64,000 nucleotides of DNA, taken from NCBI RefSeq assembly GCF_011290685.1, contig NZ_JAANYN010000002.1, forward strand, positions 799,347 through 863,346, given 5' to 3'. Positions within the stretch are counted from its first letter, which is position 1. Every line of letters starts with the position of its first letter. The position numbers and the translations under genes are program-made. Under the pieces are notes generated by a model. That model was not told the DNA's origin. It was given only the letters and a program-made list of their open reading frames with translations, and did no database searches. This DNA is from Cyclobacterium plantarum. Lineage in GTDB: Bacteria > Bacteroidota > Bacteroidia > Cytophagales > Cyclobacteriaceae. This document shows positions 11,165-39,305 of the stretch, one piece after another.

Positions 11165-11230
11165 TAAAGTTACAGTCTTTGCACGAGTTACTACTCAAGC
11201 ATCTTAGCCAAAAAATATGATATGTTAACG
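11165..11230 (-). promoter_or_regulatory. Shared regulon promoter, copy 1 (GH78)
   Basis: Reading the minus strand: GTTAACATATCATA (about 11229-11216), then TTTTTTGGCTAAGATGC (TAAGAT at 11206-11201), exactly 28 nt (11200-11173), then TAACTTTA (11172-11165), a -7-type box. The GH78 start codon is 65 bp further on. The same layout with the same 28-nt spacing occurs at 29601, 37709 and 39240. The conserved upstream half is probably an activator or operator site; which one is not known. Confidence 0.7.
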
Positions 11231-11444
11231 ATGACTACGCTGGGTTCAAGAATTTTCCTCAGCTGTCAATAAAATGCATATTTCGCGTAAAAACCTTGTA
11301 GTTATGTTTACGGTTTATGCCAGAAAGTATGCTTTCATGGGCAAGGGGTTAATTCCGAACAAGATAAACTTCAAAACAATCAGACCAATATTCTTGCACA
11401 ACTCCCTCAGTATGCCGTTTCTGGTCAAAACAGCATGGCACATG

Positions 11445-11614
11445 CAGATGAAATCGAGCCTGCCTGAGGCAGACAGGCATGAGGAGAGTGTCACACATGG
11501 GGATGATCATCCATCATGCGAAGATTCCCGGTCCGACTGGCATCAACCGGGCGGGCACCCCGATAAACCGGGGCAAGTTATGATCATTAAAAATCAAATT
11601 ATAAACAGATAAAA
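11445..11614 (+). repeat. Palindrome-rich repeat element, left inverted copy
   Basis: The first 43 bp (11445-11487, containing AAATCGAGCCTGCCTGAGGC) are perfectly identical to the reverse complement of 16026-16068. About 70 bp later CCCCGATAAACCGGGG (11558-11573) and a following stretch to 11612 match the reverse complement of about 16063-16117 with few differences. The element contains the palindromes CTGCC-TGA-GGCAG and CCCCG-N6-CGGGG. The remainder of the 791-bp gap 11101-11891 holds the promoter above and no gene I can support. Confidence 0.75.
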
Positions 11615-11891
11615 TGCTTCATCGGCTTGTGTTTCTTGAAATGGGGTTCGGTACCTGCCTGTTCAACAACGCTTTTTGAAAATTTCCTTCCGGACCAGGG
11701 ATAAAAGTTGGGCGATAGATAGGATGTCCGGACAAAAAATTATTCCTAACTTACTTTCGATTGCGATTCTTGGTAGAAACAACACCAGAGAAAAGAGGGG
11801 AGAGCTCCGAACAGCTTCCTATCTTTACTTTTGCCATTTTCTTTGATTGGATTATTTCTGGTCTTTTCGATCTTGAACGACATGATATCAA

Positions 11892-13655
11892 ATGACTGAA
11901 ATGAAAAAAAATACATTGTACAAGGATCTTTCCGAATTGTTGCCCATGACGTTTTTTAAAATGGCCAGGTCTTTTTTTTGGTTGAAGCGTACGGAAGATT
12001 TCAGAATAACATCCTTAATAGCCTGTTCTCTCCTCTTCTTAGTTGCTACTGTTGCAAGCGCACAGGATGCTGAGTATAGCACTAAAGAAGGCACGATCCG
12101 AAAGGCAAATGTTGGCGGTTACATGATTACTCAAAGGGAAAAGGTTGATGAATCATACAATGCAGGCTACTCCATGTATGCAGCGGCCTGGCCGTTATTA
12201 AGGGAATATCCAGGAAGGAGTTTTCAATCAGGCTTGTTTGGTACCTGGATGCACCCGCAGTATGACGGGCCCTTGCCGGTAGAAAAGTTGTATACGGATA
12301 TTGAAGGAGGCCTGGGATGGTGGCGTGATACAGAGTATGCTACAACAACGCCTAAATTTATAATGGGCGGCGTGCAACTCAATTTTGCCGGATGGGCTAA
12401 CGGTCCCGGGGCTGGTAGAGGAAGGGACTGGAGCGACCCGAAAGGGAAATACGGCGTAGCTCAACTGAGTCCATGGCTACTGTGGCCTCCGGATGGCCTG
12501 AACCTCAAACAAGGCACCAGTGGTGAGTTGTTTGGCAGTGGATACCTGCCTTTGCCACTCACAGAGCCAAAAACTACCACAGCAGGTGAAGCTGTTTCTA
12601 CCGGCAATCAATGCTGGACCTTATTTCTAAACACCGGTAATTTTAAAGGCCCCGTGGCATTCTTCACCCCTTATTTCTGGACTCAGGCATCGGTTGAAGA
12701 TCCCCGTCTGAATGGACTATTTTTAGATCAACGTCCCTCTGAACCTAATAAGGCTTTTCAAATGGAAACCCAGCATATTCACTCCTATGAAGCCACTGAT
12801 TCCAACGGCCAAACGTATGCCCGTATGGCTCCGACGCAATATCCGGTAGGGCCAGATGGTAACTCGGATCTCCTTCACCGCCTGATGGTCTATAAAAAGG
12901 AGGCCCTTTGGGACGCTGTAGAAGCATGGTTTGCCGGAGGCGATCCTGTTGATGGTATAATAAACGTGGAGCATGCAACCATGCAAAAGTTTAACAAAGG
13001 TGTCAGATCAAACTGGAAGTTTTACGGAGAGCATATTCCCAAGAACAAACGTGCCTTAATGAATATTACTTCCTACATGGACGCAAATGTCACTGATTCG
13101 GCTACCTTACGGGTTCGCTGGGAAGGAGACCTGATTACAAAAAGAAAAACAAATGGCCATATCCTGATCACACTTCCCGAATACTATAAAATGGAGAACT
13201 CCAGCGAGGACGATATTGGGCAATGGGTGGCAGTGGCTCCGAAAGAAGTCCCTTCTGAAACCGGACTCCATGAGGTCAGCTTTAACAGGGCTGAAGATGA
13301 CAGGTCCTCCCTTACCTATGTTACACCTGAGGAGGAAGAAAGCAGCTGGAAAAATCCGGGCCCGGCAGCAGGGCCTTTCAAGACGAAGCTGGGAGATGGC
13401 AGTACCCTTACCTATTATTGGTATAGATTTGCCGACCAACCTGCTTTGCTTAATGCCGACATGAGTAAAGCAGCACGTGAAGAAATGCAAAGAAGGGTAG
13501 AACTACTGCACAAGCATTGGAAAAAAGACCAGGAATACCTGCCTCCACCGTTGATAGGAGAGCTGGCTGATATCGATCCGGCTTTGATCGTCAGTCCACC
13601 GGCGGGTATGGAGGTAGGCTATGTGCCTATAGTCACCAGACAGGGATTGGAATAA
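11892..13655 (+). CDS. Secreted protein of unknown family
   Basis: 587 residues. I do not recognise the family. The N-terminus is long; the hydrophobic stretch ITSLIACSLLFLVATVASAQ at about 39-58 is a signal peptide with cleavage after ASA-Q, so an internal start (Met19 or Met24) is likely. The mature part is Trp- and Tyr-rich (GGLGWWRDTEYATTTPKF, LSPWLLWPPDGLNLKQG, FFTPYFWTQASVEDPRLNG) with no membrane segment. It reads like a globular extracellular enzyme or sugar-binding protein. A middle section resembles a beta-sandwich (SATLRVRWEGDLITKRKTNG). It is the first gene of the plus-strand block between the inverted repeats. An S9 peptidase remnant begins 2 bp after its stop. Confidence 0.6.
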   Translation: MTEMKKNTLYKDLSELLPMTFFKMARSFFWLKRTEDFRITSLIACSLLFLVATVASAQDAEYSTKEGTIRKANVGGYMITQREKVDESYNAGYSMYAAAWPLLREYPGRSFQSGLFGTWMHPQYDGPLPVEKLYTDIEGGLGWWRDTEYATTTPKFIMGGVQLNFAGWANGPGAGRGRDWSDPKGKYGVAQLSPWLLWPPDGLNLKQGTSGELFGSGYLPLPLTEPKTTTAGEAVSTGNQCWTLFLNTGNFKGPVAFFTPYFWTQASVEDPRLNGLFLDQRPSEPNKAFQMETQHIHSYEATDSNGQTYARMAPTQYPVGPDGNSDLLHRLMVYKKEALWDAVEAWFAGGDPVDGIINVEHATMQKFNKGVRSNWKFYGEHIPKNKRALMNITSYMDANVTDSATLRVRWEGDLITKRKTNGHILITLPEYYKMENSSEDDIGQWVAVAPKEVPSETGLHEVSFNRAEDDRSSLTYVTPEEEESSWKNPGPAAGPFKTKLGDGSTLTYYWYRFADQPALLNADMSKAAREEMQRRVELLHKHWKKDQEYLPPPLIGELADIDPALIVSPPAGMEVGYVPIVTRQGLE

Positions 13656-13657
13656 TC

Positions 13658-15274: not shown

Positions 15275-15481
15275 ATGAAATCGATCACTATTGATATTAT
15301 CAACGAAAAGGCCATCCATCTTTTACAGGATTTAGAATTGCTTAAATTGATTCGAATAAGGAAAGAAAAGGCTGGTAAAAAAGATGCTACAGACTGGGGC
15401 CGATACAAGGGAGCCATGTCCAAACAACCTATCGGCGAGGTTGACCAACAACTAAATGAGTTACGCAGCGAATGGGAATAA
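15275..15481 (+). CDS. Antitoxin of a VapBC-type pair
   Basis: 68 residues, MKSITIDIINEKAIHLLQDL, then a basic linker and IGEVDQQLNELRSEWE. It has the size and position of the short antitoxins that precede PIN toxins in Bacteroidota. No ribbon-helix-helix or AbrB motif is plain, so the DNA-binding class is unassigned. It overlaps the toxin gene by 10 bp, which indicates translational coupling. The start has an AGGA spaced closely before the ATG. Confidence 0.75.
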   Translation: MKSITIDIINEKAIHLLQDLELLKLIRIRKEKAGKKDATDWGRYKGAMSKQPIGEVDQQLNELRSEWE

Positions 15482-15864
15482 AATACCTCTGGGATACCAA
15501 CACAGCGATCTATTACCTTCAGCAGCAATTCCCACCTTCTGCTGAAGAATTCATTGACAGCACTTTATCCGATTCCACCCCTGCTATTTCTGCCATTACC
15601 GAAATTGAACTACTCTGTTGGAAAACTGCCACCGAAAAGGACTTGGAAATTCTTCATGATTTCATCAATGATGCCTTGGTCCTGGAACTGGAAAAGGATG
15701 TCAAACTCAAAACGGCTGAAATACGTAAAACTCACAAGATTAAACTCCCGGATGCCATCATTGCCGCTACTGCTTTAGTTCATAACCTGACCCTGATAAC
15801 CAGAAACGAGAACGACTTCAAAAATATCGATGGACTTGAATTGGTCAATCCCCATGAAAAGTAA
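15472..15864 (+). CDS. vapC: PIN-domain ribonuclease toxin (VapC type)
   Basis: 130 residues with the complete set of PIN acidic residues: Asp8 in KYLWDTN, Glu44 in ISAITEIELL, Asp94 in KLPDAIIAATA and the final acidic position in TRNENDFKNI (Asp115). The family cleaves RNA, often tRNA or rRNA, with Mg2+, and is inhibited by the cognate antitoxin. The gene is translationally coupled to the upstream antitoxin. It lies inside the inverted-repeat-bounded block. The catalytic set is intact, so it is probably active. Confidence 0.88.
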   Translation: MGIKYLWDTNTAIYYLQQQFPPSAEEFIDSTLSDSTPAISAITEIELLCWKTATEKDLEILHDFINDALVLELEKDVKLKTAEIRKTHKIKLPDAIIAATALVHNLTLITRNENDFKNIDGLELVNPHEK

Positions 15865-15983
15865 ACGCCCCACCTATCATTTGCAATTTACAATTGGAAA
15901 TGGACGGAATTGCCAAAAATCTACGGCTTTCAAACCATTTAATCCAGCGTATTTTCATGTGTTTATAATTGTCATTTAGTGGT

Positions 15984-16996: not shown

Positions 16997-17261
16997 GATT
17001 ATTTCCTTTTCCACAAAATAACGATTATTTTACATTTTTAGGTTCATTTTAATGAATGATATTGATCCAGCGACTTTCTCAGGTTTTGCATCCTTACTCT
17101 TTTGTAGCGTTCTGTGTTGGTGATACATCCGAATGAGTGCACTTTATTGGTGTATACTTTAATCAACGGGCGGTATGATGCATCGAAGATTTTTACCCAT
17201 GGCGACATGGTGTCTTCAAAAGCTGTTGAGGGATTTGTATTAAATTTGGAGGAGCTGTTTT

Positions 17262-18494: not shown

Positions 18495-20000
18495 TCAATA
18501 CTTTGCCGCTTCACCCTTCAGGGGGATTGATTGTTGAATAAACTCCCGGAGATCATTGGTAGACGTTACCAAATCTTCCTCCCTCACATACATCATGTGA
18601 CCACTTTCATACACGTTAAAATGTAAACGGTCTTTCATTTTACCGCTTGGATCAAGCTTCCACATGCCATTCATTTGTCTGAAATAATTGACCAACATAT
18701 CGTAATATCCTGCTTGAAATAATACGTGTAGATGGGGGTTCTGCATCAGGGCATTGCGCAATTTCTCTCCGGTCCCATCCGTAAATCTATCCCAGGGCCA
18801 TGGGAATACAGAGCCAGAAACATGGTATTGCAGGTCTGTTTTAAAGTTTAAATCATCTCGAAGATATGCATTAATTGCAGGAGTGAAGGCATTATCCCAG
18901 GCAGCTGACTCCGGTGGCGTACTTCCGGTAAAGGTATCGCCCCCATCCATTTTATCTATACCCTTATACCGTGCATCCGAAAGACCCAGGAAATATCCTT
19001 CATCCCTTAATAACTCTTTTCTGAAAGCTTTAGTGGGCACTGTCAGATTGTGGTCCAATATGAATTCCTTTTTGAGACCTGTGTACCGGGCTAATTTTTC
19101 CGCAACGGCTTGTTTCTGATCTTCATCAATAAATCCGCCTCTTTCGACTGCTGGTAAATATTCCTCTATGGCATACGTTTCAACTTCTGAGAGAACATCC
19201 GTAAGACTTTTTTTCTGTAAATCTTCAGGTAGCTTTTTATGATACCAGGCTACCGCAGCGTAGTTGGGCAACTGAAGCACTTCATTGCTTGCGATAGGAA
19301 GTTCCATTTTAGTCCCGGAAACAATAACTACTCCGTTAAGGTAAATCCCATGGTGGTCTTGCAGTTCAGCAGATAAGCCCGCTACGCGTGTTGCCGAATA
19401 ACTCTCCCCAATCAGGTACTTTGGGGATCTCCAACGTTCTTGTCGTGATAAAAAATTATCAATCCAGTCAGCCAGGTAGGTAATGTCTTGATACACCCCA
19501 AAAAAATCTTCCCGCTTGCCATCATTTAATATGCGGGAAAAACCCGTGTTGACGGGATCAACATTTACGATGTCTGCCACATCTATAATGGAATGGGGAT
19601 TGTCGACGACACCATAGGGTTGTATGGGATATCCCTCATCACTTATTTCCAGCCGTTTCGGACTTGTATAACCCAAATGCATCCACAACGATGCAGCTCC
19701 CGGCCCTCCATTGAATGAGAACGCAATGGGTCGATGCTCATCCTGATCCACATCACTTCGTTTGTAATAGGTATAAAACAACGCAGCATCAGGTGCTCCA
19801 TCTTCACCGTATACCGGCTGAGTACCTACCGTAACCTGATAGGGTATTCTTTTCCCATTAACCGTTACTTCATTGGAAGAGACAAAGGAAGTATCGGCCG
19901 GTAATTTATTGTTTTGGGCATGCAAAGAAGTAAGGCAACCAATTAATAAAAGTAAAGGGAAGATTATTTGATGGAGAAATTTACTGGTTTTACTACACAT
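18495..20000 (-). CDS. S10 family serine carboxypeptidase
   Basis: 501 residues with a signal peptide ending TSLHAQ. The oxyanion-hole motif FSFNGGPGAASLWMHLG lies at about 90-107. The nucleophile is in LIGESYSATRVAG near residue 200. The acid and base regions are VLFQAGYYDMLVNYF (Asp) and YESGHMMYVREED (His). These four blocks define S10 carboxypeptidases, which remove C-terminal residues at acidic pH. It is exported to the periplasm or outside. It is the last gene of the six-gene operon starting at 29501, with a 71-bp gap after the M3-like gene. Confidence 0.9.
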   Translation of the reverse strand: MCSKTSKFLHQIIFPLLLLIGCLTSLHAQNNKLPADTSFVSSNEVTVNGKRIPYQVTVGTQPVYGEDGAPDAALFYTYYKRSDVDQDEHRPIAFSFNGGPGAASLWMHLGYTSPKRLEISDEGYPIQPYGVVDNPHSIIDVADIVNVDPVNTGFSRILNDGKREDFFGVYQDITYLADWIDNFLSRQERWRSPKYLIGESYSATRVAGLSAELQDHHGIYLNGVVIVSGTKMELPIASNEVLQLPNYAAVAWYHKKLPEDLQKKSLTDVLSEVETYAIEEYLPAVERGGFIDEDQKQAVAEKLARYTGLKKEFILDHNLTVPTKAFRKELLRDEGYFLGLSDARYKGIDKMDGGDTFTGSTPPESAAWDNAFTPAINAYLRDDLNFKTDLQYHVSGSVFPWPWDRFTDGTGEKLRNALMQNPHLHVLFQAGYYDMLVNYFRQMNGMWKLDPSGKMKDRLHFNVYESGHMMYVREEDLVTSTNDLREFIQQSIPLKGEAAKY

Positions 20001-20071
20001 AATAACGTATTTATTTAAGGGTTAAAGTTTTTACAATTTTTCCGGAGATGCCGTAAAGCCTTGCACAAAAG

Positions 20072-22105
20072 TTATTTATAGGCTTCAAGCGCATTTCGCA
20101 TCGCCCTCAATAGTGGCCTGGAACTTAAAGGTTCACCTGTTGCTTGAATCATCCACAGATCGGGTGTAAGCTTACCGATTTTGCATGTTCGTATCATCTC
20201 CGTTGCAAAATCCTTTCCTTCGAACTGCTCTTCCAATTGCATGACGACAATATTACCAATAGGATAGCTGTGCAAATAGAGCGCCCCGGAAATGAAATGG
20301 TTATAGATGGCTAAGATAGGGACATCCCTTACACCGAAGATCTCTGCAAAATACTGGTTCCAGATATCCTTCGCAATAGCAATGGTTGCTGCCTTAAGCT
20401 CTTCAACAGTAGCATCCGGATGATCATACAGCCAATGCCACACCCTGATCTCGTGAAGCGCTTCCGATCCCATTTCACAAACAAACCAAAACGCGGCCAG
20501 GGCATTGTCCTGCTTTTCCCGGGCACTGTATTCCTCATTTATTCCTAAGGCAATCAAGTTGCGGTAAGCAATAAGATCTGCCATGGCTTCTGTATAAGGG
20601 CTGCCTGGGATGCCTTTCAATAAATAATAATCAGACATGTAGGTACCTACATTCTGCTGAATGGTATGGCCGATTTCATGCATCCCTACCCTGTAATTTT
20701 TGTAATCCAGGCCATCCTTTTCAAAACGGATACGCAAATGTGCTTTAGCGCCTTTCATTTGTGGCGCATTGGCATGTCCTCCGGAGGGAATTGGATCAAC
20801 AACAACGTGATTGCCTAAAAATTCCGCTTCAAAATCCGGGAAACCAATCCTTTTGAGGATGTTGGGTAGATCTTGCTGAAATGCCATTGGGGTGGGATAT
20901 TTTTCTTTGATCAGCTGATCCAGTTCATCCATTTTATAATTCGTATTGTCGCTGAAACCGGTGTACCAAATATCGAAGGGTTCTAACTTTCTGCCGATCT
21001 TTTTTTCAATCAAGGCCGCTACGGCTTTCTTTTCTGTAGCGCTTAAAACTGATTCCAGCAATGAAACAATTTTTTCTTCACTCAGCTGACCATTTTTAAA
21101 GGTTCGGGTCAAATACGTTGATCCTTCGGGATGGATGGCATCCTGTCGCATCTTGGATAACATGTTGTGATGCAACACTTTGTATCTATTATCGGGTTCA
21201 GCCTTAAAAGCTGTTTCGACAAGTTTTTCTCCCTCTTTCAGATAAACCTTATTGGCTATGGGTTCCCAATAATAAGCCGTTTCTCCTACCATGCATTCCG
21301 GTATGGTTTGATAGATGATATGCATCACTATGGTACTTATGACGCGCTGCTTTTCCAGAGGATTATCCCTGTAATAAAGCCCTTTGATTTCATCCCTTAG
21401 TCCATTGTGACTGTTTAACCGGGTTCCTTCAGGAAAAAGAACTTTAAGTTCGGGTGATAACACATGGTCCATTGATAGAATGTAGCGGGTGGTGTAATCA
21501 CGAAGCTCATCAGGAATCGGCATGGGGTCGGGCTCCTTATCCGGATCGGACCTGAAATCAAATTTATCTCCCAATCTGACCATTGCCCACTTTTTTCGAC
21601 TCCATTTAGCCCCAAATGCTTCCTTTTCTTCATTGGTATAATAGGGGAAATTGAGGGCGATGGCGAGGGCAAGTTTGCTTTTGAAAAAATCAATCGTAAT
21701 TTTTGAATCGCTAAAAAACCTGTCGAGCTCGGTGATAGGTCGCGTCATGGTCACCAATGGGAAATCGAGTGCCAGAGAGAGTTCTCGTTGGTACCCATTG
21801 ATGGCACTAAATTGTTGTTCAGCAATATCCAGCGCATTATCAAGCTCCGGACCGGAAGGGATAAACTGCTTCAGGCAAAACTCCTGAAATTCGGAACCAC
21901 TACCATTTTCTTCAAACCAAAGATTAGAAAGGTGCCTGACACCACGAACGATGCGTTCTGAATTTTCATCTCCATATTTCGTTATCAGTTTCTCAGTAAC
22001 CTGATTTACACCGTCCTGTAAACTGTCTTTGAAAATCTCCTGTCCGAAACTACTATGTGAGACAAAAACCAAGGAGATAATAACTAAGTAATAAATGTTT
22101 TTCAT
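20072..22105 (-). CDS. Secreted zinc metallopeptidase, M3-like
   Basis: 677 residues with signal MKNIYYLVIISLVFVSHSSFGQ. The zinc motif HEIGHTIQQ lies near residue 472 and the likely third ligand is in SPYTEAMADL about 30 residues later. This is a gluzincin arrangement. The mostly helical body and the length fit M3-like or M32-like oligopeptidases, but the M3 signature HExGHxxH is not complete, so I name it M3-like only. It probably cleaves oligopeptides in the periplasm. It lies within the peptidase/sulfatase operon, 62 bp after the sulfatase gene. Confidence 0.7.
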   Translation of the reverse strand: MKNIYYLVIISLVFVSHSSFGQEIFKDSLQDGVNQVTEKLITKYGDENSERIVRGVRHLSNLWFEENGSGSEFQEFCLKQFIPSGPELDNALDIAEQQFSAINGYQRELSLALDFPLVTMTRPITELDRFFSDSKITIDFFKSKLALAIALNFPYYTNEEKEAFGAKWSRKKWAMVRLGDKFDFRSDPDKEPDPMPIPDELRDYTTRYILSMDHVLSPELKVLFPEGTRLNSHNGLRDEIKGLYYRDNPLEKQRVISTIVMHIIYQTIPECMVGETAYYWEPIANKVYLKEGEKLVETAFKAEPDNRYKVLHHNMLSKMRQDAIHPEGSTYLTRTFKNGQLSEEKIVSLLESVLSATEKKAVAALIEKKIGRKLEPFDIWYTGFSDNTNYKMDELDQLIKEKYPTPMAFQQDLPNILKRIGFPDFEAEFLGNHVVVDPIPSGGHANAPQMKGAKAHLRIRFEKDGLDYKNYRVGMHEIGHTIQQNVGTYMSDYYLLKGIPGSPYTEAMADLIAYRNLIALGINEEYSAREKQDNALAAFWFVCEMGSEALHEIRVWHWLYDHPDATVEELKAATIAIAKDIWNQYFAEIFGVRDVPILAIYNHFISGALYLHSYPIGNIVVMQLEEQFEGKDFATEMIRTCKIGKLTPDLWMIQATGEPLSSRPLLRAMRNALEAYK

Positions 22106-22167
22106 TTTGATATTTACAATTAGATTAAAGGCTTTTAAAAATCCTATTCAGGTTAAAATGATAACCA

Positions 22168-23604
22168 TTACTTCCCTTTCACCTTTCCTACATATTCCGG
22201 ATTGATTTCCCGGGGAATGGGCGCATCAATCTCCTCTTGCCACTTTATAAGATCATCAAGCAACTCATCCCGTTTATCAACCTGCACAGCTGCAAGGTTC
22301 GTTGTTTCGCCAATATCATCCGCAAGATTATACAATTCAACTGCATTGCTCTCTGCTAAATTTTTACGACCGCCGTCGAGTACCCACTCTTCGTGAAATT
22401 GCAATAACTTCCAATCCCCTTTCCTGATGACACTCACCGGCCTTGATCTGAAAAGCGTATCCCGTGACTCCTTTTTCATTCCCTCATAGGATTGCAGGTA
22501 GGCAGGAAAATGCCAAAAAAGAGCGTCCCGGTCCAGGGTTTTTTCTCCGTTTAGCAAGGGTACAAGACTCCGGCCGTCCAACACATAATCGGTTGGTTTT
22601 TCTACACCGGAAAGCTCCAGAAAAGTCGGGTAAAAATCAATCCCGATAACGGGCTCCTCGCATACTGTCCCCGCTTTTATTTTACCTGGCCAGTAAGCAA
22701 ACATAGGTTCCCGAACACCTCCCTCATAATACATTCCTTTTCCCCCACGCAAAGGTTTTTGGCTCGTATAGGTTCCATGTCCTCCGTTGTCTGAAAAGAA
22801 GATCAGTAATGTATTTTCAATTAGTCCAAGATCCTCCAGTATCCCATTTATTCTGGCCACACTTTGATCGACACTTTCTATCATTGCGGCGTAGGTGGTA
22901 TTATTGTGTTCCTGGGATCCCTCTTTTTGCTCGTATTTATGGATTAAGCTGTCTTTTGCCTGAATGGGGGTATGAACGGCATAATGGGCCAGATAGAGAA
23001 AAAAAGGATCCCCTGTTTTTTCCGGATTATTGTCCTGGATGAATGTCACCGCCTTTTCGGTCAAATGATCCGTAAGGTATTCTCCCCCATCATTGAAATG
23101 ACCTTGAAATCCTGAGCCCGGGATGCCCAGATCAAAACCTTGCTTTTCGGGAGAATTACCTACATTCCATTTTCCTATGGCCGCAGACCGGTAACCTGCA
23201 GGTTTTAAGGCCTCTGCAATCATCACATGCTCAAGGGGCACCGTTCTGGAATTGGGTATGGGGATCAACCTCCTGTCCTTCGGATCTCCACGATCTGATC
23301 GGGCAACGGTGTAGACACCATGCCGGGGTGAATACTGACCACTGAGCAAACAGGCGCGGGTTGGGGCACAATTAGCCGCATTCGCATAGGCCTGGGTGAA
23401 TACCATACCCTTTTTTGCCAATTGATCGATATGGGGTGTTTCGTAAAATTCCGAACCCATAAACCCTACATCTTTCCATCCCATATCATCAATAAAAATA
23501 AAAACAATATTAGGCTTTGCTTTATTCTCGCCTACCTTGTTAGAGGAAAAAGCTCCTGCTGCGAGCAGCAAAAGAATTAAAATAAAAGGATACAATGGTC
23601 TCAT
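22168..23604 (-). CDS. Secreted sulfatase (FGly type, CAPTR)
   Basis: From Met at 23604 (MRPLYPFILILLLLAAGAFS) the protein has 478 residues and a clean signal peptide. An extension to 23664 adds 20 polar residues and is unlikely. Metal ligands are in FIFIDDMGWKD. The signature is CAPTRACLLSGQYSPRHGV, with the FGly Cys near residue 80; Thr in place of Ser at the fourth position is tolerated in the family. FFSDNGGHGTY and the C-terminal VELYNLADDIGETTNLA complete the fold. It begins 66 bp after M60 (the longer start would leave 6 bp), so it is embedded in the peptidase operon. That suggests its substrate is a sulfated glycan attached to peptide. Confidence 0.88.
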   Translation of the reverse strand: MRPLYPFILILLLLAAGAFSSNKVGENKAKPNIVFIFIDDMGWKDVGFMGSEFYETPHIDQLAKKGMVFTQAYANAANCAPTRACLLSGQYSPRHGVYTVARSDRGDPKDRRLIPIPNSRTVPLEHVMIAEALKPAGYRSAAIGKWNVGNSPEKQGFDLGIPGSGFQGHFNDGGEYLTDHLTEKAVTFIQDNNPEKTGDPFFLYLAHYAVHTPIQAKDSLIHKYEQKEGSQEHNNTTYAAMIESVDQSVARINGILEDLGLIENTLLIFFSDNGGHGTYTSQKPLRGGKGMYYEGGVREPMFAYWPGKIKAGTVCEEPVIGIDFYPTFLELSGVEKPTDYVLDGRSLVPLLNGEKTLDRDALFWHFPAYLQSYEGMKKESRDTLFRSRPVSVIRKGDWKLLQFHEEWVLDGGRKNLAESNAVELYNLADDIGETTNLAAVQVDKRDELLDDLIKWQEEIDAPIPREINPEYVGKVKGK

Positions 23605-23670
23605 GGTATTTTTATTATATGCCCGCTCCTGTTTTTGATTTTTTTTGCCTACACACTTTTTCATTGTTCA

Positions 23671-25863: not shown

Positions 25864-25987
25864 GTGGTTACTATTTGCTTTTCAAGGACTATAACTCGTC
25901 TATACTGAAAGTTCCCGACCTTCGAGGGCATCCTCCCTCTGTGGGAATAGCCCTCATCATACCCGGTTTTTAGAAAATTTCAGACCA

Positions 25988-28123: not shown

Positions 28124-28148
28124 GTTTCTTTGAATTAATTTAGGTTTC

Positions 28149-29501
28149 TTATTGATTATTTTTCATAAATGCCTCTATTTCAGCTACCGTCCGGGGCAGC
28201 CCTGCTGACAGGATTTCAAAGCCATCTTCGGTGATCACCACAGTGTCTTCGATCCGTATACCGGTTACCTCGTCCGCTTTTCCCATGATGTCGCAGGCAA
28301 AGACAAAACCGGGTTTCAACGGTTCTCCACGGTCAAAGTCAAGCATCCGGTCATGCACGGCCATGCCTATGCTATGGTTGAATCCGCCGTCCCGAATCCA
28401 TAACTTGAACCGGGGATCGGTGGTGTCAAATCCCAATTTTTCAAGCTCTCCTTTAACGACCGCACCGATCTCTGTCAGAGAAATCCCCGGCCGGTAAAGA
28501 CTCTGGCATATTTCCCTAACAAAAAGACCCAGCTCGTATATCTCCCGCTGCGTTTCGGAGAATTTTCCACTGGCCGGAAAGGTGGTTGAAACGTCTGACG
28601 CATAGTACCCCACATTGGCACCACCATCCAGGATGATAAAGTCTTCTTCCTGCAATGTGCGGTCATATTGCATGTAATGCCCGTAGGCATGGTTTTTATC
28701 CGACATGATAATGGTCCCGAACGCCAATCCTTTTGCCCCGCCGGACATACAAACCTGCTGAAAAAGGGCGGCCAATTTTACCTCTGCTACCCCCGGCCTG
28801 GTATTTTTTATGACCGCTTTGTGTGCTTCAACAGAAAGCTGGGCTGCCTGACGAAGCACATCAATTTCAGCTTTAGACTTGATCTTTCGCAGTTCCCAGA
28901 TAAATGGCGTACAATTCACTACCTGGTTTTCAGGAAATCGCTGGTTTAAAACCTCCACGAATTGCATTTCTCGGGTAAGTCTGCCATCCCATTCATTCTC
29001 GGTTACGGAGCGTCTGAATTTGTTGTATTTTTCCATGGAATTTTCGCCTATATGTTCTTCCGGACTGAAGGGCGTATAAATTACCGTACTGCGCTTTAAC
29101 CTGTCCTTTAGCGTTTCAGAAAAATCCTCATAGGGAAGATAGTTTTCAATTCCGGTAACTTTTTCAGGCTCCCTGACCAGGTCCAGCGGTATGTTTTCAC
29201 CATCAGCATGCTGCTCACTGATGGTAAAAAATAGTGTACTTTCCCGTCTTTCACCATCCACGATAAGAATGGCATTGGGAATTTCAACCCCCGCAAAATA
29301 CATCATGTTGTTGTATTGGCTGAAAGGTGTATCTCCCAAAGGTTCTGATGCACCCCGGATGATGGCAATGCCATCAGGAATACTATCCATGAGCTTCTGC
29401 CTGCGGTTGGCGTATTCATCTTTCTCAAAAATTAGCTGTGCATTTACCTCAATTACCGTGAAGCTAAGCAGCAGCGTTAGAAATAAAGCAGATTTTATCA
29501 T
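28149..29501 (-). CDS. M24 family Xaa-Pro aminopeptidase, exported
   Basis: 450 residues with a signal peptide ending TVIEVNAQ. It has an AMP_N-type N-domain (RRQKLMDSIPDGIAIIRGAS). The pita-bread catalytic domain has its dinuclear metal ligands in LDGGANVGYYASDVSTTFP (two Asp), GFNHSIGMAVHD (His) and GIRIEDTVVIT (Glu). It releases N-terminal residues preceding proline. Proline specificity fits Hyp/Pro-rich glycoproteins, which is inference. This is the promoter-proximal gene of the six-gene operon; the shared regulon promoter lies 100 bp upstream. Confidence 0.87.
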   Translation of the reverse strand: MIKSALFLTLLLSFTVIEVNAQLIFEKDEYANRRQKLMDSIPDGIAIIRGASEPLGDTPFSQYNNMMYFAGVEIPNAILIVDGERRESTLFFTISEQHADGENIPLDLVREPEKVTGIENYLPYEDFSETLKDRLKRSTVIYTPFSPEEHIGENSMEKYNKFRRSVTENEWDGRLTREMQFVEVLNQRFPENQVVNCTPFIWELRKIKSKAEIDVLRQAAQLSVEAHKAVIKNTRPGVAEVKLAALFQQVCMSGGAKGLAFGTIIMSDKNHAYGHYMQYDRTLQEEDFIILDGGANVGYYASDVSTTFPASGKFSETQREIYELGLFVREICQSLYRPGISLTEIGAVVKGELEKLGFDTTDPRFKLWIRDGGFNHSIGMAVHDRMLDFDRGEPLKPGFVFACDIMGKADEVTGIRIEDTVVITEDGFEILSAGLPRTVAEIEAFMKNNQ

Positions 29502-29600: not shown

Positions 29601-29668
29601 TAAAATTACAAGGTTTGCGCTGGTTAATCCTCAAGCATCTTAGCCAAAAAATGTGGTATGTTAACACT
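29601..29668 (-). promoter_or_regulatory. Shared regulon promoter, copy 2 (peptidase operon)
   Basis: Minus strand: GTTAACATACCACAT (about 29664-29650), TTTTTTGGCTAAGATGC (TAAGAT at 29642-29637), 28 nt, then TAATTTTA (29608-29601). About 40 bp of the upstream half are nearly identical to copy 1 at 11.2 kb, and similarity continues through the 28-nt spacer (shared TAAC and GCAAA). It drives the M24-M1-M60-sulfatase-M3-S10 gene set. Confidence 0.7.
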
Positions 29669-32576: not shown

Positions 32577-34304
32577 TTACCAGCCCGGATTCTGGTCCAG
32601 GTTGGTATTTAACGTCAGTTCATTGGTGGGGAGGGGCATGAGGTAGTCTCGCTCCGGGTCAAATCCATATCCTCCATCCGGTCCACTTAACCTGTTCTGA
32701 AAGGGATCAAAGAATCCGTCGGCATTGACCGGAACATTAGATAAAGCCCTTAATTCGGGAGTAGCAAATGTGCCTACGAATCGTTCGCCCATCCAGTACT
32801 CATGTGCTCTCCAACGCATCAAATCATCAAACCGAAACCCTTCTGCAAACAATTCTACTACACGTTCTCTTCTGATTTCTTGTAAAACGTCGGTCAATGG
32901 ATAACCGTAATCAGGCCAGTTGGGGTCGGAGGTGATGTTACCGATAGTAAGGTGTGGCATTCCCACCCTGTCTCTTAACTGATTGATGGTCATGTCAACA
33001 TCCGCTTGTGTCAATGTACCCAATTCGGCTTTTGCTTCGGCATAAATCAACAATGCTTCGGCGTAGCGCATGAAAATATAATCCACATTTCCATTGTTAA
33101 TGCCTTGTGCAGGATCTACCACAATGTGCCGGAATTTTTGTGACTCTATACCTGTACCACTATTGTCTACATCTGGATTTACATAAAGAAGTGTATCCGT
33201 TCCTTCTATCCTTCGGATATCACCCGGAACCATAAATGTCTGGGCAAGTCGTGGGTCCCGGTTCACTTCAAGGATATCTAAAGTTTCATCCCCAACAAAA
33301 TTAGGGCTAACAGCTATGGGCAAGCCATCGTTGCTCAGATAAAATCTTGACGCATCGTAGGTATATCCATAACCATTTGGCCAATTCCACAATTGATTGC
33401 TAAAGCTATCTCCTACTGCCCTATCGAAATGTTGGTAAAAAATCACTTCCCGGTTGCCGGCATAGTCTACCTGGTTAAAGAGTTCAAAATAGACGCTGCT
33501 GCTATCTCCTGTTATGAGAGAGAAATTCCCATCATCCATGAGCTGCTTTGCTGCATCAGCGGCTTCCTGCAAATAGGCGGAACCATCGGTTTGTCCTTCA
33601 AAAACAGAGCCCTGATGGTATTTCTCCCAGGTACCTGCATAGAGTGCTGCTCTTGCTTTAAACAATAAGGCAATATCTTTACTCAAGCGGGTTCCTGGTG
33701 TTGCCAGTTGGTGGCTATGATCCATCAGGGAGATGGCCATATCAATATCACTTAGAATAAAATCAAAAACCTCTGTTCTGTTGGCACGGCTGCCATAAAG
33801 GATGTCCTCATCTTCAGCCGTAACCGGAACTGTAATGATTGGTAAAGCTCCAAAATCCTTAAACAAGTCAAAGTAAAACCATGCCCTGAAAAAATGTCCC
33901 TCACCAACATAATGGTCTCTCATGTTTCCACCTTCGGGAACACGATCAACATTAGCAAGAAAATAGTTGATGTTTCGGATATTTCCCCAATTCCAGCCAC
34001 CTCCAGAGCCCGGAACATTTACAACACCGTCCATACGTTGTGTGAAAGTGCCTCCAAAAGCATTGAGCCCTTCTAAAGCAAAGTCAGTTCCTTCGTCCTT
34101 GGTCGGTGCCTTACCACCTCCGGAGGCCGGCCATCCCTGAAAGGAGTCATAAAACGAGTTAAGAAATAATTCCAGATCGGATTGACTGTTCCAGAATTCC
34201 GGATCGGATATCTGATCGAGGGGTGATCTCTCCAGAAAATCATCCTGACAGGAATACATTGTTATTCCCATAACCCCTATAAGTATATAAAATATTTTTT
34301 TCAT
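32577..34304 (-). CDS. SusD/RagB-family nutrient-binding lipoprotein
   Basis: 575 residues. The signal MKKIFYILIGVMGITMYSC gives a lipidated Cys19, then QDDFLERSPLDQISDPEFWN, the canonical SusD start. The TPR-like helical core is followed by the typical C-terminal block LTDVLQEIRRERVVELFAEG, FRFDDLMRWRAHEY and ending DYLMPLPTNELTLNTNLDQN. It forms the lid of the SusC channel at the cell surface. It is 11 bp after the susC stop codon. Shared regulation with peptidases makes a peptide or glycopeptide ligand (RagB-like) plausible; this is inference. Confidence 0.93.
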   Translation of the reverse strand: MKKIFYILIGVMGITMYSCQDDFLERSPLDQISDPEFWNSQSDLELFLNSFYDSFQGWPASGGGKAPTKDEGTDFALEGLNAFGGTFTQRMDGVVNVPGSGGGWNWGNIRNINYFLANVDRVPEGGNMRDHYVGEGHFFRAWFYFDLFKDFGALPIITVPVTAEDEDILYGSRANRTEVFDFILSDIDMAISLMDHSHQLATPGTRLSKDIALLFKARAALYAGTWEKYHQGSVFEGQTDGSAYLQEAADAAKQLMDDGNFSLITGDSSSVYFELFNQVDYAGNREVIFYQHFDRAVGDSFSNQLWNWPNGYGYTYDASRFYLSNDGLPIAVSPNFVGDETLDILEVNRDPRLAQTFMVPGDIRRIEGTDTLLYVNPDVDNSGTGIESQKFRHIVVDPAQGINNGNVDYIFMRYAEALLIYAEAKAELGTLTQADVDMTINQLRDRVGMPHLTIGNITSDPNWPDYGYPLTDVLQEIRRERVVELFAEGFRFDDLMRWRAHEYWMGERFVGTFATPELRALSNVPVNADGFFDPFQNRLSGPDGGYGFDPERDYLMPLPTNELTLNTNLDQNPGW

Positions 34305-34315: not shown

Positions 34316-37300
34316 TTAGAAGTTAAGGTTTAAGCCTGCAGACATGGTCGTGCTCAATGGATAAGCATCACCAGCCCCGTACCATCTTCCGGCAAGTGCC
34401 TCCGGGTCAAAAAACATCAAATCGGTAAAGGTCAAAAGATTCTCACCGGACACAAAGATTCTGGCATTGGTCAGTAACACTTTTTCCGCAATTTTTTGAG
34501 GAAGTGAATACCCGATTTGCAGGTTTTTAAGCCTTAAATAGGCCGCATTTTGAATAAGGTGATCAGTGGGAGTTCCGTAATTTTTTGCATTTTCACCAAA
34601 AAACTGGGCATAGGGTCTGGGGAAATAGGCGTCTGGATTGGCACCCAAAGCACTAGTCTCATCACGCCAATAGTCCATATGATCCTCTAAGACATTATTG
34701 TGCATGGGTCCTGCGGCAGGCCCCCTGAATACGGAACTGTTTCCAAATGTCCAATCTCGTTTTGCCACTCCCTGGAAAAACACAGAAACATCAAAATTCT
34801 TATATTGTGCGTTCAAGTTAAAACCATAAGTGTATCGCGGTGTGGTATTTCCTATTATTTCAAGGTCTCCGGGATCTCCTACTGTATTGTTGCCTATATC
34901 AATTTTACCATCTCCATTCAGATCCTTATACCTGAAATCCCCCGTTCTCCACAAGCCGGAATAAATAAAGCTTTGGTCTACGCCTTCATTAATTTCAGCC
35001 TCTGTTTGAAAATGTCCGTCGTACCGGTATCCCCAAATCTCATTAAGGTCCTGTCCGGGGTAAAAAGTATTTAATAATCCGGTCGGATTATTATAGTCCA
35101 CCACGGTGCTTCTGTAATCGGCCAATTGGCCTCTGATTTCATAGCGGAAATCCGGGCTTACCTGATTTTTCCAGGAAAGCTCAAGCTCCCATCCACGTGT
35201 TTTTATTTCTCCTTCGTTCCTTTTTGGCACTGTTGATCCCAATACAGCTGGAAGGGGCTGTCCTGGGCCTACAAGGTCTGAGGTCCTTGTTTCATATACA
35301 CCAAAAGAAACGCCCAATCGATTATTCATTAAGGAGGCATCAATGCCCAAATCTAATGTGGATACAGTTTCCCATGATAAATTCACACTATTCAGATTGG
35401 GTGCACGAACGGTCCAGGCCCGTTGATTGCCAAATAGCCAGTTGTTGGTTTGATTAATCGGCATGGTGGGGATGAATAAATAATTGGCCACATCCTGATT
35501 ACCCAATGTTCCGTAGGAGCCTCTTAATTTTAACAGGTCGAATAAACCAGATGATGACATGAAGTTCTCTTCCGAAAGAATCCATCCGGCCGATACCGAT
35601 GGGAAAAATCCCCATCTTTCATCTTCTTCAAACCTGGATGATCCATCCGTCCTCATGTTTACTTCAAGCAGGTACTTTTCGTCAAAAATATAATTAAATC
35701 TGCCAAAAAAGCTTCTTGTAGACCAGTGTCCTATGCCGTCATTAACCAACTGATCCCCGACTGCGGTACTGATCGATGGAATGGCATCACTCAGTAAGAA
35801 GAAACTTCTTGCACCTAAATTACTAAAGGTATATTCCTCTTGTTGATAGCCTACCATCAATTGAAGGTCATGATTTCCCAATATCCTTGAGTAAGAGGAA
35901 TAAATGTTTGGGGAGAGATAGGTATTTCTTCTCAGTTCATTGTGGTATTCTGTTGATTCCCGGTTTTGCGGTATAAACTCAACATCTCCACCGGCGAAAT
36001 TAGTACCATCACCAGGTCTGACCCATGGATATTGTAACGAAGTCCTTGTGTCTTCAACCTGGGTGGACGTATAATTCAGCTGTACAGTCGTCACCCAACC
36101 CTCTATGGGTTTTATTTCTATTTTGGGTGAAAGGACCAGCTGGTTATCTGTGATTGTTTGCCGAACTCTTCTCCAGGCCTCCACATTGGTCTGTTGGGTC
36201 CAAATATCTGTCCCGGGATATTTGGCAGGTGTGCCAAATTTTATTTTCCCAATCCAGTTCATGTACCAGGCACGGCCAAAGTTTTGATTCCAGGGAAAAT
36301 CTTCATTTTCAGATTTGTATTTTACAAAAAGATCAAGGTTCATCCAATCGGTGACCTTGGCCCCGATCTTGGCGTCCACATTAAATCGACTAAATGACTC
36401 ATCACCAAATCTCAATAACCCCTCTTCATCATACATGCCGCCGGACAAATAATAATTCATGGTTTCGTTACCCCCAGAAATAGATAAGTTGTGTTTCACT
36501 CTGAAGGAGTTGTTCTTCATGATCAAATCTCTGATCCCATCATTCGCTACACCCATGGTACCGGTGTTCAATATGTCCCAATTATCGCCTGATGCATTGG
36601 GCAACATCCCGGGAGCACTTCCCGGATTGGCCAGATTCTGCTCCAAACGGGCTATGGCCTCTTCCGGATAAAATGGAGAAGCACCAAAATTGGTCCTTGC
36701 ATCATTCAGTGCATGTGCCCAGGCAGTACCTCCCTGTAACTCCGGCCATATGGTAGGCGAACTAAACCCGGCATTCGTGGAATAGGAAATCCTAGATCCT
36801 TTACTTCCCTTTTTCGTGGTAATCAGGATAACCCCGTAAGCTGCCCTTGCCCCATAGATAGAAGTTGAGGCGGCATCCTTCAATACAGAAACCGATTCAA
36901 TATCATTAGGGTCAATGTCGTTGATACCCATAGGAACCCCATCCACAAGGACAAAGGGTGCGGTGTTTCCTTCAAAGGATGCTAAACCACGGATGGTCAT
37001 GGCCATATCCGCTCCAGGCTCTCCTCCTGCCGTATTCGGCTGAATGACCAGGTTACTTACCAGCCCCTGCATGGCCTGCTGCACGTTGGTTACCGGACGA
37101 TTTGCCATGTCCTCGCCTCTTGCCGTAGACACCGCCCCGGTCAAATTGATCTTCTTTTTGGTACCGTAGCCAACAACGACGACTTCATTCAGGGAGGATA
37201 AATTGGCCTGCAGGGTGATATCTATTTGTGATTGGTTGCCAACAGCCACCTCCTGAGGTTCGAAACCTATAAAAGAAAAAATCAATGTGGCATTTTCGTC

Positions 37301-37684
37301 CACTTCAAGCGTATATTTCCCATCAATATCCGTTACCGTACCAAGGGTGGTACCGGCCACTGTAACGGATGCACCGGGCAGGGGATCGCCGCTATCATCT
37401 TTTACAGTTCCTGAAACCTGGATATCCGCTAAGAGCGCAGATAAATTTTCATCGAATTTACCGTAGGAGGCATTTCCAAGGGTAAGTTGAGATGCACCAT
37501 TTTCTTTCCTGATAATATCACTGCCTGCGTCCGTTAAACCGAAAGAAGCCACCGGAAAGATAAATACCAGTGACAAACAATAAACTGCCCAGGCCCGTAA
37601 ATTGGGGATGGTTCTTTGCTCAATCCGGTCATGTTCAAAACAGCGACCAAATCTTTCGCTTTCTATAGTATAATTTGTTTTCAT
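34316..37684 (-). CDS. SusC/RagA-family TonB-linked outer-membrane transporter
   Basis: From ATG at 37684 (MKTNYTIESERFGRCFEHDR) the protein has 1122 residues. The longer frame to 37735 would run into the shared promoter and is rejected. A hydrophobic signal segment (AWAVYCLSLVFIFPVASFG) follows. Then come the CarboxypepD_reg domain (VSGTVKDDSGDPLPGASVTV), the SusC motif LNEVVVVGYGTKKKINLTGA, and a plug (GLASFEGNTAPFVLVDGVPM). A barrel ends ...MSAGLNLNF. It imports ligand with TonB/ExbBD. The promoter copy 3 lies 25-90 bp upstream. No anti-sigma or HTCS regulator gene is adjacent. Confidence 0.93.
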   Translation of the reverse strand: MKTNYTIESERFGRCFEHDRIEQRTIPNLRAWAVYCLSLVFIFPVASFGLTDAGSDIIRKENGASQLTLGNASYGKFDENLSALLADIQVSGTVKDDSGDPLPGASVTVAGTTLGTVTDIDGKYTLEVDENATLIFSFIGFEPQEVAVGNQSQIDITLQANLSSLNEVVVVGYGTKKKINLTGAVSTARGEDMANRPVTNVQQAMQGLVSNLVIQPNTAGGEPGADMAMTIRGLASFEGNTAPFVLVDGVPMGINDIDPNDIESVSVLKDAASTSIYGARAAYGVILITTKKGSKGSRISYSTNAGFSSPTIWPELQGGTAWAHALNDARTNFGASPFYPEEAIARLEQNLANPGSAPGMLPNASGDNWDILNTGTMGVANDGIRDLIMKNNSFRVKHNLSISGGNETMNYYLSGGMYDEEGLLRFGDESFSRFNVDAKIGAKVTDWMNLDLFVKYKSENEDFPWNQNFGRAWYMNWIGKIKFGTPAKYPGTDIWTQQTNVEAWRRVRQTITDNQLVLSPKIEIKPIEGWVTTVQLNYTSTQVEDTRTSLQYPWVRPGDGTNFAGGDVEFIPQNRESTEYHNELRRNTYLSPNIYSSYSRILGNHDLQLMVGYQQEEYTFSNLGARSFFLLSDAIPSISTAVGDQLVNDGIGHWSTRSFFGRFNYIFDEKYLLEVNMRTDGSSRFEEDERWGFFPSVSAGWILSEENFMSSSGLFDLLKLRGSYGTLGNQDVANYLFIPTMPINQTNNWLFGNQRAWTVRAPNLNSVNLSWETVSTLDLGIDASLMNNRLGVSFGVYETRTSDLVGPGQPLPAVLGSTVPKRNEGEIKTRGWELELSWKNQVSPDFRYEIRGQLADYRSTVVDYNNPTGLLNTFYPGQDLNEIWGYRYDGHFQTEAEINEGVDQSFIYSGLWRTGDFRYKDLNGDGKIDIGNNTVGDPGDLEIIGNTTPRYTYGFNLNAQYKNFDVSVFFQGVAKRDWTFGNSSVFRGPAAGPMHNNVLEDHMDYWRDETSALGANPDAYFPRPYAQFFGENAKNYGTPTDHLIQNAAYLRLKNLQIGYSLPQKIAEKVLLTNARIFVSGENLLTFTDLMFFDPEALAGRWYGAGDAYPLSTTMSAGLNLNF

Positions 37685-37708: not shown

Positions 37709-37771
37709 TAAAGCTATTAAGATGGCTCTCTCCATGCATCCAATATCTTAACCATATTGTGTGGTATTTTG
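37709..37771 (-). promoter_or_regulatory. Shared regulon promoter, copy 3 (susCD)
   Basis: Minus strand: AATACCACACAATATGGTTAAGAT (TAAGAT at 37750-37745), exactly 28 nt, then TAGCTTTA (37716-37709), 24 bp before the ATG at 37684. The upstream half matches copy 2 in roughly 21 of 29 positions and lacks the GTTAAC end. The conserved spacing is what makes this copy convincing. Confidence 0.65.
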
Positions 37772-37935
37772 CCTTTTACCACAATAATGCTTGAATTATG
37801 AAATTAGTAAACTACCAGATTTTCAAAAAGATACCGGGTTTAGGTGCCTATTACATTACATTGTAAGCCTGTTTTTGTGTATATAATAAATAAGCATCAG
37901 GTGGGTGCTCAAACTTACACCTTTCTTTGCTAGAG

Positions 37936-38284: not shown

Positions 38285-38289
38285 CCGTA

Positions 38290-39177
38290 TCACAATACCT
38301 GGACTTTCGACTCCCCTTCTTTTCGGATGGCGGAAAGAAACATCCATACCGATGTATAGAGAATGATACACAAGACCACCCATTTGAGCATTAACAGGGG
38401 TAACGATTTGACAACAAAAGCGGCCAGAAACACGCCCATAATTCCGGCAATCGATAGCGAAAAGGAAACTTTCCTGTCATAGGCTCCTTTTTTGACAAAC
38501 TGAGCCCCGCCAGCTGACATTAACATGGCAGTTGCAGTCATCATTATTGGAAAGGCGGTGAGCGGATGCATGCCAAGCGCATAGACCATCGCCATGCAGG
38601 GTGCATAAAACCCGACCCCTACGGTTTGGAGGGCACCAAAAATAAAGCTCATCCCAACTATAAGTGCCAGTTTCCAACCTGTCAATCCTATGGCCTCCCC
38701 ACCTACGGGCATCAAATTTAAAAATCCAGCTATCATAATCAGGGCCACCGCCAACAGGCCGAAACCAAGTCCCATCTGTATACCGCGGCGTGACATCCTG
38801 GAAACAATATCCGCACCAAGCAATGCGCCCAAAGGTGCGGCTGTTGCCATGCTGACCAGGGTAATGGGGTCCACCTGAACTACTGTCATGAATATAAAGG
38901 CCTGCGTTACTGTAGGAATTGTATTTCCAACATTCATTGTACCGGGGATCAGCCGGTCATCGACAAGCTTAAAAAACTTAAAAATAGCGGTCTGCTGCGC
39001 AAAACTCCCAATCCCCAAGGTGTCGAAAAAATTGGTAACAAATCCGGTTGCTAAAAGACCTGACCATGGTTTGCCGGAAAACACCTTTCTATTTCTAAAA
39101 ACATCCCTAATATAGTAGAACCCAAACGTTCCCGTCATGATCCCCAAAATTACTTTTAGAATGATACTCATAACCAA
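38290..39177 (-). CDS. TauE/SafE-family sulfite/organosulfonate exporter
   Basis: 295 residues with about eight hydrophobic segments (MSIILKVILGIMTGTFGFYY, MGLGFGLLAVALIMIAGF, LALIVGMSFIFGALQTVGVG). Two internally similar halves carry the GxxxGxxGxG-like glycine patterns of the TauE/SafE/DUF81 family. Members export sulfite, sulfonates or related anions across the inner membrane. It was in one operon with a now-dead sulfatase and shares a promoter type with a sulfatase operon, so a role in handling sulfur anions or sulfated sugar catabolites is plausible. Substrate not shown. Confidence 0.8.
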   Translation of the reverse strand: MVMSIILKVILGIMTGTFGFYYIRDVFRNRKVFSGKPWSGLLATGFVTNFFDTLGIGSFAQQTAIFKFFKLVDDRLIPGTMNVGNTIPTVTQAFIFMTVVQVDPITLVSMATAAPLGALLGADIVSRMSRRGIQMGLGFGLLAVALIMIAGFLNLMPVGGEAIGLTGWKLALIVGMSFIFGALQTVGVGFYAPCMAMVYALGMHPLTAFPIMMTATAMLMSAGGAQFVKKGAYDRKVSFSLSIAGIMGVFLAAFVVKSLPLLMLKWVVLCIILYTSVWMFLSAIRKEGESKVQVL

Positions 39178-39239
39178 TCGCTTTGGAAGGTAATGGCATG
39201 CCCAATTGATACCATTTTGTTATCGAACTTATTTATGGA

Positions 39240-39305
39240 TAAAAGTATCAAGACCACCTGTGTTAATTATCCTGTTTTTTAACTAAAATGTGTTGTATGT
39301 TAACA
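39240..39305 (-). promoter_or_regulatory. Shared regulon promoter, copy 4 (TauE)
   Basis: Minus strand: TTGTTAACATACAACACATT (39305-39286), TTAGTTAAAAA (TAAAAA at 39281-39276 replacing TAAGAT), exactly 28 nt, then TACTTTTA (39247-39240). The start codon of TauE is 62 bp downstream. One extra base separates GTTAACATAC from the inner half compared with copies 1 and 2. Confidence 0.6.

Follow-up and report, generated by a model that had tools for sequence, protein, structure and literature searches.

A fixed-spacing operator and promoter element before unlinked genes of Cyclobacterium plantarum, and a candidate AraC-family activator

The stretch of the Cyclobacterium plantarum genome analysed here (64,000 nucleotides, hereafter the window) carries a composite promoter element in front of genes for a GH78-type rhamnosidase, a run of peptidases and a sulfatase, a SusC/SusD pair and a TauE/SafE-type exporter. 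In these four promoters the element is a gapless 64 nt on the minus strand, made up of a 28-nt operator, exactly 28 nt of spacer and a TAnnTTTA box; as each part is fixed in length, the four copies (11165–11228, 29601–29664, 37709–37772 and 39240–39303) align without gaps. An earlier note on this DNA had described four shared elements with exact 28-nt spacing, and both claims hold: all four lie on the minus strand where they had been placed, with spacers at 11173–11200, 29609–29636, 37717–37744 and 39248–39275. It erred in stating that no other minus-strand promoter in the window has the element: a fifth copy at 47658–47721 (minus), reading CTAAAATACCATACCTTTTTGATAAAAT-N28-TAATTTTG, was found when a weight matrix built from eight sites was run across the window, the DNA around it and parts of the relatives' genomes. 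A degenerate operator pattern allowing up to three mismatches recovers exactly the four elements of the earlier note in the window, against a mean of 0.01 matches (maximum 1) in 100 shuffles. The parts of the five copies are as follows.

11201..11228, minus strand: operator 1, GH78 promoter; direct repeat with a 21-bp period
11165..11172, minus strand: -7 box TAACTTTA, 28 nt past operator 1
29637..29664, minus strand: operator 2, promoter of the peptidase/sulfatase operon
29601..29608, minus strand: -7 box TAATTTTA, 28 nt past operator 2
37745..37772, minus strand: operator 3, susCD promoter; kept at 6/6 SusC orthologs
37709..37716, minus strand: -7 box TAGCTTTA, 28 nt past operator 3
39276..39303, minus strand: operator 4, TauE promoter
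39240..39247, minus strand: -7 box TACTTTTA, 28 nt past operator 4
47694..47721, minus strand: operator 5, missing from the earlier note
47658..47665, minus strand: -7 box TAATTTTG, 28 nt past operator 5

Behind these promoters lie the following genes and one further stretch.

8659..11100, minus strand: GH78-type alpha-L-rhamnosidase gene (Pfam)
6945..8393, 5680..6606 and 3573..5351, minus strand: sulfatase, DHDPS-family and SSF symporter genes, 3' of the GH78 gene
18495..29501, minus strand: six consecutive genes (Pfam, NCBIfam)
34316..37684, minus strand: SusC-type TonB-dependent receptor gene, start placed as in orthologs
32577..34304, minus strand: SusD-type lipoprotein gene (Pfam)
38290..39171, minus strand: TauE/SafE-type exporter gene (Pfam)
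47378..47653, minus strand: stretch with a conserved block, candidate structured RNA, 3' of promoter 5

Going by gene order, the GH78, sulfatase, DHDPS-family and SSF symporter genes perhaps form one operon. The run of six genes encodes an M24 peptidase of the aminopeptidase P type, an M1 peptidase with HEAT repeats, an M60-like peptidase, a sulfatase, a 677-aa protein with no Pfam match and an S10 carboxypeptidase. The SusC open reading frame (ORF) had been called from an ATG inside the spacer (37735); the start shared by the orthologs is the ATG at 37684, which lies 24 nt from the box.

The operator is a direct repeat with a 21-bp period, and its half-sites have TTAA.AT in common. When the 36-nt profile of 84 distinct site sequences was compared with itself, a lag of 21 scored 0.192, the next direct lag 0.071 (lags 4–29) and the best inverted arrangement 0.131. 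The box, TAnnTTTA in four window sites and TAATTTTG in the fifth, matches the housekeeping -7 form of Bacteroidota; for Flavobacterium psychrophilum, the accessible part of one source gives a TAnnTTTG consensus at -12 to -5 (PMC9723704). The core of the proximal half-site would then end near position -41, and its TGGA extension near -35, adjoining the -33 region. Among 101 sites with enough sequence, TAnnTTTR begins 28 nt from the operator in 67 and 29 nt in 13, and only three times at the 69 other offsets combined, counts that are partly built in, as the search profile includes the box. All 13 sites with the 29-nt spacing precede DPP IV genes. Separately, a short inverted repeat, GGATGC...GCATC, lies between operator and box and is kept in several spacers of SusC orthologs (e.g. 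37717–37744).

The element is rare in the genome. A composite pattern of operator, spacing and box has five matches in 6.17 Mb and none when the pattern is reversed; four of the five lie in the window and one precedes a GH106-type rhamnosidase gene on contig C34. A sequence-only profile, built from 14 sites of six genomes, finds nine matches at E<=3.3e-5, the tenth appearing only at E=0.08. Five are those of the window, and four are on C34, before the GH106 gene, two SusC-type receptor genes and a DPP IV-type peptidase gene. The sites stand in front of genes, not at random or non-promoter positions. The operator was also scanned for on its own: a matrix made from the four operators gave 80 matches above 24 bits and no decoys in 1.7 Mb of DNA including overlaps, 63 of them with a box at 28 or 29 nt and one with a box elsewhere, in a scan most of whose loci had been chosen via the full profile. 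A loose TTAASAT-N14-TTAASAT pattern with three mismatches was useless (24 matches, 26.9 expected).

Within the genus, profile matches at E<=0.01 occur in 8 of 12 Cyclobacterium genomes (nine in G000, eight in G001, ten in G003, eight in G004, five in G005, eleven in G006, three in G008 and ten in G011), and none at this threshold in G002, G007, G009 and G010. Six of the eight positive genomes had supplied sites to the profile; G008, G011 and the genomes outside the genus had not. An ortholog of the window SusC (88–94% identity) is present in 6 of 11 congeners and has the element before it in all six. The target count took in 104 matches (64 in the 12 Cyclobacterium genomes, 40 outside the genus), with G263 left out. 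A first downstream ORF was found for 94 of 103 matches; six had none near and three no usable locus. By best BLAST match, 87 of these 94 first genes resemble one of 15 reference proteins of this genome, a count which shows recurrence and not unbiased enrichment, the references being this genome's own targets and their neighbours. They comprise SusC (34), DPP IV (13), GH106 (12), M24 (10), sulfatase (6), TauE (5), GH78 (5), DUF6797 (1) and sdaA (1). Of the seven left unclassified, one, in G006, is a GH127 gene by Pfam and one in G005 looks alike. In G006 this intact GH127 gene has its own element about 2 kb upstream of the TauE site; the window has a GH127-type gene remnant upstream of TauE (39464–39877, minus), with matches to the middle and C-terminal domains only.

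The recurrence of SusC/D importers, glycosidases and sulfatases behind the element is the gene content expected of a polysaccharide-utilisation regulon. The earlier note had proposed a shared regulon of distant units and had suggested a scan of the genome and its relatives. The nine matches with a clean gap below them, together with the recurrent target families, support such a regulon; the matches concentrate before SusC, peptidase and sulfatase genes, and in 13 of 15 genomes one match site adjoins a regulator gene.

That gene, at C34:163288-164169, lies outside the window, adjoins one element and encodes a 293-aa AraC-family protein. Its domain matches are HTH_18 (69.5 bits, cut-off 33.6), AraC_binding (26.0, cut-off 21.1) and, below its cut-off of 27.2, Cupin_2 (22.9). 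With only these HTH_18/HTH_AraC, AraC_binding and Cupin_2 matches, it has none of the sensor, kinase and receiver parts of a hybrid two-component system (HTCS). The protein is found at >=82% identity in exactly the eight element-bearing Cyclobacterium genomes, and at no more than 37% in the other four. A family survey covered 295 genomes of 84 genera, drawn evenly from a larger group; its profile scan used stricter filters, and weak matches were lost. The regulator occurs at >=71% identity in 15 of the 295, from six genera, and the element (E<=0.001) in 15 of these 15 versus 3 of the 280 others (Fisher p 1.4e-22, uncorrected for kinship). In 13 of the 15 an element lies 81–259 bp downstream of this gene and precedes a gene for a DPP IV peptidase. 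The neighbourhood reads sdaA, araC, DPP IV, DHDPS family, Xaa-Pro peptidase. Among 16 named Cyclobacteriaceae loci, a match at E<=0.5 follows the regulator gene in 14, and in eight a weaker match (E 3e-5 to 0.04) points the opposite way, to sdaA.

A diverged form of the arrangement extends to Flavobacteriaceae. In 8 of 8 loci with 42–45% identical regulators (five from Arenibacter, and one each from Flavivirga, Algibacter and Cellulophaga), [CT]TAA..T-N28-TANTATTG stands before DPP IV, its box differing from TAnnTTTG at a single base. Four of the eight keep the first half-site, CTAAAAT, unchanged, and in the other four it is weakened or gone; the profile itself finds one weak match among these loci (L233, E=0.04). 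The Algibacter lectus cluster (L245 6009–19226) includes as many as three AraC genes, along with DPP IV, a prolidase-like M24 peptidase, a DHDPS-family gene, an aldehyde dehydrogenase and a Pro_racemase-family gene; it looks like a cluster for (hydroxy)proline use.

It is therefore probable, at roughly 80%, that one free cupin-type AraC-family activator, encoded at C34:163288-164169, turns on an unlinked regulon via this element. Several observations weigh against this. Algoriphagus lacus (L219) has the regulator, and its 195 bp up to DPP IV carry no element; in A. boritolerans (L220) the 470 bp after the regulator gene have none and read as the start of a transposase. G173, with a 47% identical regulator, has no profile match. 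Conversely, a convincing element precedes a DUF6797 gene in G055, whose regulator homologs reach no more than 33% identity. This element (L171 308–370) precedes a DUF6797/cytochrome c gene near a contig end, and the site may be an orphan or horizontally gained. The other two regulator-less positives are G063, with a match before an ORF read as a URO-D/corrinoid-type protein, and G263, with a partial match at the junction of SusC-like and SusD-like frames. The 15 genomes are related and fall in six genera, so that 15 of 15 amounts to few independent events, and six of them partly supplied the profile. Of the 29 AraC-domain matches in the genome, some of them long HTCS-size frames, the regulator comparison covered two; further AraC-domain genes lie at C22:769514-772619, 27–30 kb left of the window. 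Finally, TAnnTTTR stands at 28 or 29 nt in 80 of 102 sites, leaving 22 without it there: 15 have TA at 28 nt with a poorer box and seven do not.

The operator might instead belong to another AraC-type protein, most plausibly an HTCS, with the AraC gene beside the DPP IV promoter a bystander. In the accessible part of the account of Bacteroides thetaiotaomicron (PMC3878776), HTCS motifs are direct repeats spaced 21 bp apart on average; the genome has AraC-domain frames of HTCS size, and one such gene, C34:131459-135583, is on the same contig as four of the sites. Its distribution across genomes disfavours it as the regulator. Five of the 15 element-bearing genomes (G039, G074, G115, G125 and G157) lack a match to it at E<=1e-200, a threshold that a more diverged ortholog could miss, and it is matched in the element-less G002, G009 and, partly, G007. 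Moreover, no HTCS gene recurs next to the element across genomes in the way that the free AraC gene does, and on balance such a regulator is quite unlikely. Less likely still is an extracytoplasmic function (ECF) sigma factor promoter in the 28-nt part, with TTAACAT as -35 and TTAAGAT as -10, and the TAnnTTTA box as a second, ordinary promoter. SusC-type receptors are sometimes under ECF sigma/anti-sigma pairs, and the 14 nt between the heptamers is close to a promoter-box distance. The two heptamers, however, repeat each other at 21 bp, and two independent promoters would not need the box that most sites keep at 28 or 29 nt. The direct repeat and the conserved box thus disfavour an alternative sigma factor, on a comparison that included no genome-wide search for sigma/anti-sigma genes.

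That the element is a dispersed repeat or a mobile fragment lying by chance before genes, which the earlier note had named as a finding that would overturn its proposal, is scarcely credible. The copies at 11165–11228 and 29601–29664 are also alike in part of the spacer. Yet among the nine sites of this genome, pairwise identity averages 0.70 for the operator and 0.67 for the box, compared with 0.31 for the spacer, 0.30 for the upstream flank and 0.29 for the downstream one. The flanks are unlike each other, at background identity, and the repeat is rejected on that ground; the first genes, too, belong with few exceptions to a few recurrent families. A different kind of alternative keeps the regulator and changes the signal, which would be a product of proline or hydroxyproline peptides, the core function being the scavenging of such peptides with the polysaccharide loci added. 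The neighbours of the regulator gene (sdaA, DPP IV, the DHDPS family and the Xaa-Pro peptidase) fit this, as do the weaker match directed at sdaA in half of the 16 loci and the Algibacter lectus cluster, which goes on with a DHDPS-family gene (64% identical), an aldehyde dehydrogenase and a Pro_racemase-family gene. Against it, none of the 12 Cyclobacterium genomes has a match to Pro_racemase (PF05544), which in Cecembia (G074) and A. boritolerans (G176) is on a different contig from the regulator, and SusC, glycosidases, sulfatases and TauE make up 62 of the 87 classified targets. Hydroxyproline catabolism as the purpose is weakened by the missing PF05544, present though it is in the Algibacter lectus cluster, and the proposal as a whole is rather unlikely.

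Returning to the cupin-type AraC-family activator, the sequences directly show the element with its spacing and direct repeat, how specific it is within the genome, that it is conserved, and that it co-occurs with the regulator gene and adjoins it; binding, activation (as opposed to repression), ligand and substrate are inferred. A dimer would bind the two direct half-sites, TTAA.ATACCA and TTAARATnnTGGA, 21 bp apart on the same face of the DNA. As the promoter-proximal half-site would end beside the -33 region, the bound regulator could touch the polymerase on the TAnnTTT(A/G) -7 box, and this proposed contact would explain the fixed spacing of 28 nt (29 nt before most DPP IV genes). On binding of a small substrate-derived product to the cupin domain, the regulator would activate the target units together: SusC/D importers, sulfatases, GH78 and GH106 glycosidases, the TauE-type exporter, and proline-directed and M60 peptidases. 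In a relative, GH127 would also be under its control.

E. coli AraC acts at tandem half-sites beside the -35 box. The system proposed here resembles it in that both half-sites are direct and share a face of the DNA, with the nearer adjoining the core promoter; it differs in the Bacteroidota polymerase, the -7/-33 promoter and the many targets, and no looping site was seen here. The HTCS regulons of Bacteroides thetaiotaomicron (Ravcheev et al. 2013, PMC3878776), as set out in the accessible part of that study, likewise place direct repeats with an average distance of 21 bp before SusC/D, glycosidase and sulfatase genes, and their regulators share the AraC-type DNA-binding domain. In contrast, the candidate regulator here is a short cytoplasmic protein of 293 aa with an AraC_binding/Cupin_2 match and no kinase or receiver domain, and its predicted targets are unlinked and mixed with proline-directed and M60 peptidases. 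Some AraC-family rhamnose regulators of the RhaR type have motifs with 21-bp periodicity and rhamnose-related targets, according to the available part of the source (PMC3870299), a likeness in geometry and, through the rhamnosidases, in targets. Those regulators control rhamnose catabolism operons, whereas the targets seen here included no gene for a rhamnose kinase or isomerase. CgrA of Zobellia galactanivorans, a free AraC-family regulator of the carrageenan regulon (Ficko-Blean et al. 2017, PMC5698469), offers a further parallel: the accessible part of that account has positive control of dispersed SusC/D, sulfatase and GH127-type genes in a marine Bacteroidota, with another substrate and other targets, no peptidases and no described operator.

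Promoter 5 has no conserved protein behind it. A 237-aa ORF at 46539–47252 was rejected as a conserved target, there being no tblastn match at the orthologous places in five relatives. What follows the promoter is a block found in 5 of the 6 Cyclobacterium genomes compared (the window and four of the five relatives with the site; it is missing in G001), with blastn identities to the window of 73.6–81% over 85–191 nt. The window stretch 47378–47653 folds with z=-5.65; the block forms a long hairpin, after which the window has a second one. Of the 49 pairs in the consensus fold, 3 show changes on both sides, and covariation contributes a slightly unfavourable term (+0.32). A terminator scan of 47250–47800 found none, despite a long hairpin near 47385–47425; Rfam gave nothing at gathering scores over the window, its sub-threshold matches lying at promoter 5. 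The block is possibly a small RNA of the regulon.

In the units of the window, sulfatases, GH78 and SusC/D stand together with peptidases of the M24 (Xaa-Pro type), M1, M60-like and S10 families; near the regulator are DPP IV, a second Xaa-Pro peptidase and a serine dehydratase, and a relative adds GH127. M60 enzymes of gut bacteria include O-glycopeptidases, as stated in the accessible part of the literature on them. From the gene families, the substrate is perhaps a sulfated, rhamnose- and arabinose-bearing glycoprotein rich in Ser and Pro. More tentatively, the cupin-AraC activator and its operator architecture, which stand beside DPP IV from Cyclobacteriaceae to Flavobacteriaceae, may have brought under one control SusC/D systems at unlinked loci, M60 and proline-directed peptidases, rhamnosidases, an arabinofuranosidase, sulfatases and a long-hairpin RNA, for the use of a sulfated Ser/Pro-rich glycoprotein of algal or plant type; a cluster that first served peptide use would have grown into a multi-locus glycoprotein regulon by gaining operators.

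Overall, the regulon is real and well supported and belongs to a known kind; it has a candidate regulator, an unusual mixture of targets and possibly an RNA member. Among the papers listed, none describes this regulon or a regulon of Cyclobacterium, several listings having given part of the papers with the terms and subscription papers lying mostly outside. The analysis provides a testable map of regulator, operator and targets for Cyclobacterium, in which several vaguely annotated genes per genome become readable as one programme. It suggests that a peptide-scavenging cluster and several polysaccharide loci obey one free AraC-type switch, and the exact operator-to-box spacing offers a clean case for how activators meet the unusual Bacteroidota polymerase.

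Other features of the window lie apart from the element. Two small gene pairs at 15275–17014 read from sequence as VapBC-like and RelE/ParE-like toxin-antitoxin modules and sit among many short or broken frames. On the minus strand, 51280–55098 encodes a 1272-aa protein with 3-keto-disaccharide hydrolase, GDSL-like, DUF7133, HEAT and cytochrome c domains, and 58416–62765 a single frame of 1449 aa that joins an AcrB-type RND pump to an outer membrane efflux protein (OEP) domain.

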